A stretch of 36,933 nt of DNA from Nitrospirota bacterium (lineage in GTDB: Bacteria > Nitrospirota > 9FT-COMBO-42-15 > HDB-SIOI813), in assembly GCA_020846775.1 (NCBI GenBank), contig JADLDG010000029.1:1-36933 (forward strand), read 5' to 3'. The notes beneath the pieces were generated by a model. The model searched no databases. It saw nothing but the letters and a program-made list of their open reading frames with translations, and had not been told where the DNA came from. Positions 31,201 to 33,066 of this stretch are shown in pieces. The position numbers were made by a program, and so were the translations under genes. Each line of letters starts with the position of its first letter. Position 1 is the stretch's first letter.

Positions 31201-31222
31201 AACGGCTCTTCTAATTGAGCCG
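31198..31222 (-). terminator. Weak terminator after the OppC-like permease gene
   Basis: Minus-strand hairpin CGGCTC-AATTAGAA-GAGCCG followed by TTTT. The stop codon of the permease lies in the loop. Six base pairs and four T make it modest. Confidence 0.45.
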
Positions 31223-31999
31223 GTCATGCATGGCATCACCCAGTATGTTGCATGCCAATACTGTGATGAATATGGTGATGCCGGGAAATATCATTAGGTG
31301 AGGGTAAAACCTGAGCGCTGCCCAGCCGTCATTGGCAAGGACACCCCAGCTGCTGAACGGAGGTTCCAGACCTATTCCGACAAAACTCAGCGTAGATTCA
31401 GACAGTATGGCAGCAGGTATACGGAAGGTCATTGTCACGATAAGTAATCCGCTAAGACATGGCAGGATATGGCGAAATATGATCCTGCTTTTATTTGCCC
31501 CTACAGCTTTTGCTGCCTCTATGTAAGATAATTCCTTGATCCTGAGGACCTCTCCACGAACTAATCTTGCGACACTTACCCAGCTTACGAGGCTAAGTGC
31601 AATGAAAATCCCCCAGAACCCCCTGCCGATAACAACTGTAATGAGGATTATGAGCAGCAAATCAGGAATCGCATAAAGGACATCAACTATGCGCATAAGT
31701 GCGTGATCTATCCATCCCCCTTTGTAACCGGATATTGCTCCATAGGCAGTTCCCACGGCAAGGGCAACAATTGAAGTGAGGAGGCCTATGGAAAGTGATA
31801 CACGTGCCCCGTAAATCAACCTGCTAAGAAGGTCCCTGCCAAGGTTGTCAGTGCCGAGGATGTGTACCATGTTTGGAGATTGAAGTATTGCAGTCATGTC
31901 CTGTTGATCATAGGGGTAAGGGGCAAGCCACGGGGCCAGGATGGCGGTAATGGCCGCAAGAATTATTACTGTGAATGCTATTATAGTTGTAAGTTTCAC
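31211..31999 (-). CDS. Oligo/dipeptide ABC transporter permease (OppC/DppC-like), start altered by an insertion
   Basis: A 262-residue inner-membrane permease: an N-terminal helix (~5-26), HILGTDNLGRDLLSRLIYGAR typical of DppC, five more helices, and the EAA loop SYIEAAKAVGANKSRIIFRHILP that docks on the ATPase. It is about 30 residues shorter than E. coli DppC at the N-terminus. The current start is GTG with only a weak AAAGG upstream. Deleting the 133-bp repeat segment upstream joins ATG-AAT-TTT-CGA in frame to the GTG, so the ancestral start was probably ATG one base after the oppB-like stop. No ATPase gene follows. Confidence 0.92.
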   Translation of the reverse strand: MKLTTIIAFTVIILAAITAILAPWLAPYPYDQQDMTAILQSPNMVHILGTDNLGRDLLSRLIYGARVSLSIGLLTSIVALAVGTAYGAISGYKGGWIDHALMRIVDVLYAIPDLLLIILITVVIGRGFWGIFIALSLVSWVSVARLVRGEVLRIKELSYIEAAKAVGANKSRIIFRHILPCLSGLLIVTMTFRIPAAILSESTLSFVGIGLEPPFSSWGVLANDGWAALRFYPHLMIFPGITIFITVLACNILGDAMHDRLN

Positions 32000-32138
32000 T
32001 CGAAATAGCCTTTCAAATCCCCCCTGCCCCCCTTTTCTAAAGTGGGGTAACTAAATTCCCTCTTTGAAAAAGGGGGATTAAGGGGGATTATTTTCATGTA
32101 TCTTTGTGAGCCCACGGCTCATGACAGTTCACTCGAAA
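31995..32138. repeat. C/G-rich MITE-like element flanked by an 11-bp direct duplication
   Basis: The direct repeat TTCACTCGAAA occurs at 31995-32005 and 32128-32138. Between them (122 bp) are two imperfect inverted arms, 32016-32037 (AATCCCCCC..CCCCCCTTTTC) and 32066-32089 (GAAAAAGGGGGATTAAGGGGGATT in reverse sense), and a small hairpin GAGCC-CAC-GGCTC near 32108-32120. No ORF. Similar C-run/G-run repeats are dispersed in many Nitrospirota and deltaproteobacterial genomes (from memory). Confidence 0.7.
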
Positions 32139-32145
32139 ATTCATA

Positions 32146-33066
32146 CTATTGCCTGACCCTCGGATCAAGAATAGAATACAGGATATCCACTATTATGTTA
32201 GCCAGCACAATCATGACAGCATATACAATGGTTACGCCCATGATCAGCGGATAGTCCCTGTTTATTACTGCTGTTACAAAGTATTTGCCCATACCCGGTA
32301 TTGAGAATATGTATTCTATTACGAATGACCCTGTTATAAGACCGGCCAGCAGCGGTCCTGAGAATGTTACTATTGGTGATATTGCATTCTTTAATGCATG
32401 TTTGAAAAATATAGATCTGACCGGCAATCCCTTTGCATAACATGTACGCAGATAATCTTCCTTAAGTATACTAATGAAGCTTGCCCGCATGACCCGTGCC
32501 ATGTAGGCGGCAGGCGCTGCAGCAAGGGACAGGGCAGGGAGTATGGCATACCTCCATCCCTCCCAGAGAGCAGGTGGAAAGATACGAAGGGTATGAGACA
32601 ATATCAGGATTAATATGGTTGCAAGGACGAAATGCGGGATTGATACACCTCCTATTGCCATCATCATGCTTGCCTTATCAATCCATCCATGCTGTTCCTG
32701 TGATATGGCGGAGATGATGCCTGCGGCCACCCCAATCAAAATCGACAGGATAAATGCAAGAAGGCCTAATTCAATGGATGCCGGTAATGTGTCGGCAATT
32801 ATATTGCTCACAGTCCTGCCGGTATATTTATATGAAGGTCCCAGGTCTCCCTTCACTAGACTTAAGAGATAGAATATATATTGTTCTGATAAAGGTCTGT
32901 CAAGATAATACTTCTGCTCAATATTGGCCTTGATCTCAGGGGGCAGTTGTTTCTCCTCATCAAACGGACCACCAGGCACTGTGTGCATGATGATGAATGT
33001 GATGGTGGCTACGGCCCACAGGACCGGTATACCCCAGAATAGTCTTTTAAAGATAAATTTAAGCAA
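32146..33066 (-). CDS. Oligo/dipeptide ABC transporter permease (OppB/DppB-like)
   Basis: A 306-residue permease of the expected DppB length. Signatures: N-terminal FIFKRLFWGIPVLWAVATITF, HTVPGGPFD, six membrane helices, and the EAA loop DYLRTCYAKGLPVRSIFFKHALKNA. It ends LDPRVRQ, the usual DppB tail. It starts one base after the binding-protein stop, so the two are tightly coupled. Substrate is peptides or a related solute such as nickel or oligosaccharide; not resolvable here. Confidence 0.95.
   Translation of the reverse strand: MLKFIFKRLFWGIPVLWAVATITFIIMHTVPGGPFDEEKQLPPEIKANIEQKYYLDRPLSEQYIFYLLSLVKGDLGPSYKYTGRTVSNIIADTLPASIELGLLAFILSILIGVAAGIISAISQEQHGWIDKASMMMAIGGVSIPHFVLATILILILSHTLRIFPPALWEGWRYAILPALSLAAAPAAYMARVMRASFISILKEDYLRTCYAKGLPVRSIFFKHALKNAISPIVTFSGPLLAGLITGSFVIEYIFSIPGMGKYFVTAVINRDYPLIMGVTIVYAVMIVLANIIVDILYSILDPRVRQ

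Follow-up and report, generated by a model that had tools for sequence, protein, structure and literature searches.

A 146-bp segment separating two ABC permease genes in the 36,933-nucleotide stretch of Nitrospirota DNA analysed here (the window) belongs to a multicopy repeat family. Judged from sequence comparison, and with a probability of roughly 0.8, it is a non-coding palindromic insertion element that carries its own Shine-Dalgarno (SD) sequence and start codon and that was inserted at RTGA. The evidence comprises copy number, shared ends, the coincidence of one end with start codons, SD content, empty orthologous sites at RTGA overlaps, and the exchange of internal cargo.

Anatomy of the element between oppB and oppC

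The transporter genes and the parts of the element are arranged in the window as follows.

31211-31999, minus strand: oppC-like ABC permease gene (Pfam PF00528, PF12911)
31997-31999, minus strand: GTG with which the oppC-like gene starts, located at the element's right end (12 upstream in-frame codons without a start; relatives start at the equivalent position)
31995-32140, minus strand: full repeat copy of 146 bp, with TTCAYYCGAAAAT at both ends in + orientation (own-genome matches cover query 36-181)
31995-32008, minus strand: right-end module CTATTTCGAGTGAA, family consensus TATTTTCRRRTGAA (94 motifs versus 1 reversed in 1.11 Mb of the congener G001; per-genome counts)
32009-32014, minus strand: SD-like GAAAGG, 9 nt 5' of the GTG (sequence; SD energies at corresponding G001 ends)
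32015-32089, no strand assigned: cargo, a C-rich/G-rich palindrome (shared with further families of the phylum, there also without the start-codon frame)
32090-32140, minus strand: R module, ATTTTCGAGTGAACTGTCATGAGCC-GTG-GGCTCACAAAGATACATGAAAAT, a self-complementary stem-loop (RNA fold of -14.3 kcal/mol for the window R; recurs in other copies)
32107-32121, minus strand: inner R hairpin, TGAGCC / GGCTCA (folding)
32128-32138, no strand assigned: 11-mer, second occurrence, within R (common to other copies; not a target duplication)
32141-32144, minus strand: ATGA immediately past the oppB stop, the putative original start, giving ATG-AAA-CTT after removal of 31996-32140 (empty-site comparisons and the oppC start of G004, ATG-AAA-CTA)
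32146-33066, minus strand: oppB-like ABC permease gene (Pfam PF00528, PF19300)

Read in the direction of the genes, the right end consists of an SD sequence, ATTTTCRR and RTGA, in which RTG starts the next gene; the inner CATGAAAAT and ATTTTCRRATG are inverted, and the outer ends are direct repeats. On the + strand, TTCA is located at both edges of the element, and a hairpin immediately precedes the right-hand one. Positions 31500-32700 of the window matched no Rfam model at E <= 1. As had been proposed, oppC now starts at the GTG on the element edge, and none of the 12 in-frame codons preceding it in the window is a start codon; similarly, oppC begins in six relatives at the codon equivalent to this GTG (VKLS in G001, MKQT in G003, MKLS in G004, MKHK in G006, MKRN in G007, and MKKN in G008).

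The original prediction for this locus described the insertion of a 122-bp MITE-like element, with an 11-bp target duplication, and a later shift of the oppC start from an ancestral ATG-AAT-TTT-CGA to the GTG. Much of its description is borne out: the 11-bp direct repeat TTCACTCGAAA (31995-32005 and 32128-32138) is 100% identical at a distance of 133 bp, the C/G-rich stretch between the two 11-mers is palindromic (DNA fold of -26 kcal/mol, z = -4.0 versus shuffles), removal of 133 bp fuses TAG-T-ATG-AAT-TTT-CGA in frame with GTG-AAA-CTT, and the segment is indeed an insertion-type repeat of a multicopy family. The exact repeat and the in-frame fusion favor such a history; however, the 11-mer is common to copies at unrelated loci, where identical termini stand at both ends, whereas a target duplication would vary from site to site, and none of the six relatives possesses the MNFR extension that the upstream ATG would add. 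The 11-bp target duplication is rejected on account of these shared termini, the scenario as a whole is very improbable, and the 11-mer is, judging from the other copies, the element's own end rather than an insertion scar. The 16-codon reading frame from the upstream ATG exists, but it is not a gene remnant, because it runs through the element's conserved ATTTTCGAGTGAACTGTCATGAGCC. Likewise, the one-base spacing attributed to the oppA/oppB pair is in fact zero, with the oppA stop TAA (33069-33067) abutting a TTG at 33066, with which the oppB-like gene seems to begin.

Copies, start codons and cargo

A search of the window's own genome (G000; 2.7 Mb in 136 contigs) with positions 31960-32180 as the query gave 47 matches in about 40 places, the long ones spanning query positions 36 to about 181, that is, 31995 to 32140. 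TTCAYYCGAAA stands at both ends of copies at unrelated loci, and TTCAYYCGAAAAT occurs 21 times, compared with 0 matches for the reversed control. Of the 30 best copies, the window's copy included, 19 have a long codirectional ORF that begins with the terminal GTG or ATG, and several of the remaining 11 have a start within about 30 nt. Ten element-started ORFs were tested by Pfam and are ordinary genes whose first domain begins within 1-19 residues: rfbD-type, cobA-like tetrapyrrole methylase, DUF4147 kinase, lexA, uvrD-type helicase, recX, ispD, alr (alanine racemase), aspS-type (aspartyl-tRNA synthetase), and thiE (thiamine phosphate synthase). A solitary end motif without cargo (L066, G000:C16:26298-26310) stands at the start of a gene that appears fabH-like by eye, and resembles what an excision scar would leave. 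Elsewhere in this genome, one copy (L028, G000:C22:36798-36916) lies within a fused gene, by eye of the CoA-dehydratase/activase type, the frame of which stays open through the copy, over 915 codons of the stretch retrieved; the orthologous gene in G001 (L151) lacks the element.

Going by per-genome counts, only one Nitrospirota family is rich in the end motif. Ten genomes of that family, to which the window belongs, have 20 to 449 occurrences of ATTTTCRRRTGAA each (27 in G000, 178 in G001, 217 in G003, and 449 in G007), and 31 others of the phylum have 0 to 10, with controls at 0 or 1 per strand. A stricter R pattern found only two Nitrospirae metagenome-assembled genomes in the GTDB species set, from which records near the window's own were possibly left out.

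The association with start codons was quantified in G001, read as 1.11 Mb of stretches, the genomes being draft or metagenome-derived. In these stretches, ATTTTCRRRTGA occurs 94 times and the reversed motif once; the R hairpin follows 35 of the 94 (array-internal or left ends), and the other 59 are terminal. An ORF of at least 60 codons with its frame closed upstream begins at 40 of the 59 terminal ends, compared with 10.5% of random RTGA, and a simple gene call places exact starts at 37 of 65 terminal ends, the two counts being based on different filtering of hairpins and genes. By that gene call, 30 of the 37 lie between codirectional genes and a few terminal ends lie between convergent genes; about a third of terminal ends are off start codons. 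SD pairing is strong, at -4.5 kcal/mol or better, for 92% of terminal ends; the corresponding shares are 56% for called starts and 25% for random sites. The three bases (RRR) before TGA also follow position among the 94 motifs, being mostly AGG if R then follows (AGG-type in 17 of 29 R-followed motifs) and mostly GAG at a terminal start codon (GAG-type in 31 of 65 terminal ones).

Three unrelated cargo types occupy the same frame in G001, namely palindromes that are C-rich, of the CGTCATTCCCGCG type, or terminated by CTTTGTGGTAAATAACGG; furthermore, the congeners G000 and G001 carry different cargo at the orthologous lexA, ispD and oppC starts. Arrays of the form R-cargo-R-cargo-end are present between oppB and oppC of G001 and G003, and internal deletions are present in several copies. 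In other families of the phylum, the C-rich cargo is also found without the frame, and the few copies inspected there (G011, G020) are off starts. The R loops of G001 (e.g., L115, L139, L147) are often enlarged by an extra palindrome, CCCTTCGAC...AGCTCAGGG, which results in nested palindromes. In contigs C23, C121, C131, C140, C146 and C192 of G003, element matches begin no more than about 150 bases from the start of the contig, as though assembly had been broken by the repeat. In addition, the oppB-oppC gap at L034, L035, L036, L038, L039, L040, L041 and L043 holds other repeat-like or palindromic sequence, and across many relatives this junction seems to be a collector of repeats in the phylum.

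Empty and filled orthologous sites

Several orthologous junctions are found both with and without the element. At ubiU-ubiV, the empty sites of G002, G004, G005 and G006 show the overlap GGGAAA-ATGA-AA (GGRAA-ATGA in detail), and the filled site of G001 reads GGGCAAG-TGA-[GCCGTCATTAGCC...TTAGGAGTATTTTCGAG]-TGA-AACTATC. At the junction of clpB with its neighbor, G000 is empty and reads GAGATTATTTTCAGG-TGA-CTCCAATA (in short form, AGG-TGA-CTCC), ClpB ending in ...EIIFR and the next gene beginning with GTG-ACT; G001 is filled, AGG-TGA[element]TGA-ACCGGC, with the same ClpB end. For accC-thiE, it is G001 that is empty (AGATGAATCC; GGCAG-ATGA-ATCC) and G000 that is filled, and recX and some other junctions are also empty in one congener. 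A paralogous glycerate-kinase-type locus of G000 (L196) is empty as well.

Element-free orthologues have ATGA or GTGA stop/start overlaps, and those with the element have TGA at both edges; TGA is the sole sequence consistently present on both sides when empty and filled sites are compared. A target duplication of the kind expected of a MITE is seen here over 3 bp only (TGA), and the outcome of a duplication-free cut-and-join at TTCA would be indistinguishable. Co-variation of the fourth base after TGA at the two edges, inspected by eye as a sign of a longer duplication, gave no consistent pattern. The left end of the element is placed loosely because many copies carry an extra ATTTTCRRR on that side; at clpB, ATTTTCRRR is native coding DNA. 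In the window, excision from TGA to TGA (145 bp, 31996-32140) would give TAG-T-ATG-AAA-CTT, matching the ATG-AAA-CTA of G004, and the one-base gap to oppB may be ancestral, with the start ATG-AAA-CTT.

Proposed mechanism, alternatives and known repeats

In the proposed mechanism, the element has the gene-strand order TGAACC-RTCATGAGCC-loop-GGCTCA-CAAAGGTNCATGAAAA, interchangeable palindromic cargo, and SD-NN-ATTTTCRR|RTGA, and copies would arise through insertion at RTGA, typically in an ATGA or GTGA overlap in which the upstream stop is also the downstream start. TGA would then flank both sides, the left TGA stopping the upstream gene and the right RTG starting the downstream gene, and the SD carried by the element would drive downstream initiation, by which both genes would stay translated though moved apart. 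Movement of this DNA by transposition is probable, RTGA appears to be the preferred target, with selection against other sites perhaps explaining part of the bias, and the element's SD presumably drives translation in vivo. It is proposed more tentatively that a dedicated mobilization system recognizes RTGA overlaps and places interchangeable palindromes there to serve as preformed translation initiation regions, such that a noticeable share of genes, essential ones included, would start inside a mobile element.

The bias toward starts could be partly due to selection, because a frame-keeping insertion at an overlap is harmless and others are not. Taken to its full extent, this explanation holds that insertion is unbiased at any TGA(A) and that the start association results from the loss of gene-breaking insertions, those at RTGA overlaps being harmless via the element's SD; such an account falls not far short of even odds. 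It is consistent with the copies away from starts, with the shortness of RTGA as a target, with the copy L028, through which the frame of a fused gene stays open, and with the fact that starts already constitute 19-28% of tolerated sites (in G001, 402 called starts versus 1670 non-coding RTGA, 19%; 210 versus 541 for RTGAA, 28%). However, the observed 62-68% at starts exceeds this tolerated-site null, and the additional match ATTTTCAGG at clpB points to a preference for a longer target.

Two further explanations bear on whether, and by what means, the element moves. One is spread by an IS200/IS605-type (Y1) enzyme, which would cut the opposite strand after TTCA and leave no genuine target duplication. 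Such spread would account for TTCA at both + strand edges and for the hairpin that immediately precedes the right-hand one, and 8 of the 13 genomes searched have Y1 genes; it is nonetheless unlikely, as no Y1 locus is flanked by the R module and G007, with its 449 end motifs, gave 0 Y1 matches. The Y1/RAYT candidates of G000 and G001, a single Y1 gene in each, were rejected as sources, not being flanked by R. Among R/right-end pairs 0.45-4 kb apart in 1.1 Mb of G001, no convincing autonomous long copy was recognized, and neither a transposase nor an autonomous relative was found in that 1.1 Mb or at the Y1 loci. A conserved cis-regulatory RNA leader, maintained by selection and not mobile, would equally possess a stable stem-loop, a position between cistrons in fixed orientation toward the downstream gene, and an SD adjoining the start. 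Yet the empty orthologous sites within the genus and the different cargo of sister species at the same gene lead to its rejection, and the internal deletions, tandem arrays, unrelated downstream genes and lack of an Rfam match reduce it further, to a quite improbable alternative.

Regarded as an insertion element, the repeat resembles the bacterial MITEs (Correia, ERIC, RUP and others; PMC10969869), which are likewise short, non-coding, palindromic and multicopy (here 146 bp in about 40 places) and show insertion differences between relatives. It differs from them in that its ends are direct more than inverted (TTCAYYCGAAAAT at both ends), no related IS was found (1.1 Mb of G001, Y1 loci), and it supplies an SD and a start codon, with a single frame for three unrelated cargos; the terms "start codon" and "ribosome" are absent from the review of MITE effects cited above. 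REP sequences (GTAG- and CGTC-tagged; PMC3733652) may overlap gene ends, GTAG termini often supplying the stop TAG, and CGTC REPs are without a known transposase. One cargo here begins CGTCATTCCCGCG, a possible likeness to the CGTC type; however, the frame around the cargo provides a start codon and SD as well as a stop, the unit is longer and composite, and the flanking of a Y1 transposase gene by repeats, as in GTAG-type REPs with RAYT, is not seen. Rickettsia palindromic elements similarly fit into genes without destroying them, as L028 does in reading through in frame, but they insert inside ORFs, whereas the present family is mainly intergenic at stop/start junctions, with one in-frame case. 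Integron gene cassettes also form head-to-tail arrays of different units split by a palindromic site, comparable to R-cargo-R-cargo, but the units here are without ORFs.

In the open-access literature searched, no description was found of a repeat family that supplies an SD and a start codon at stop/start overlaps. ATGA overlaps at operon junctions are usually regarded as closed to insertions. An element inserting at such overlaps with a TGA duplication and its own ribosome-binding site would, if the proposed reading is correct, show mobile DNA living in dense operons; coupled genes would become independently initiated, and start-site annotation in these genomes would systematically depend on repeats. 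Differences between species at orthologous junctions are many, and the effect on translation is directly testable.
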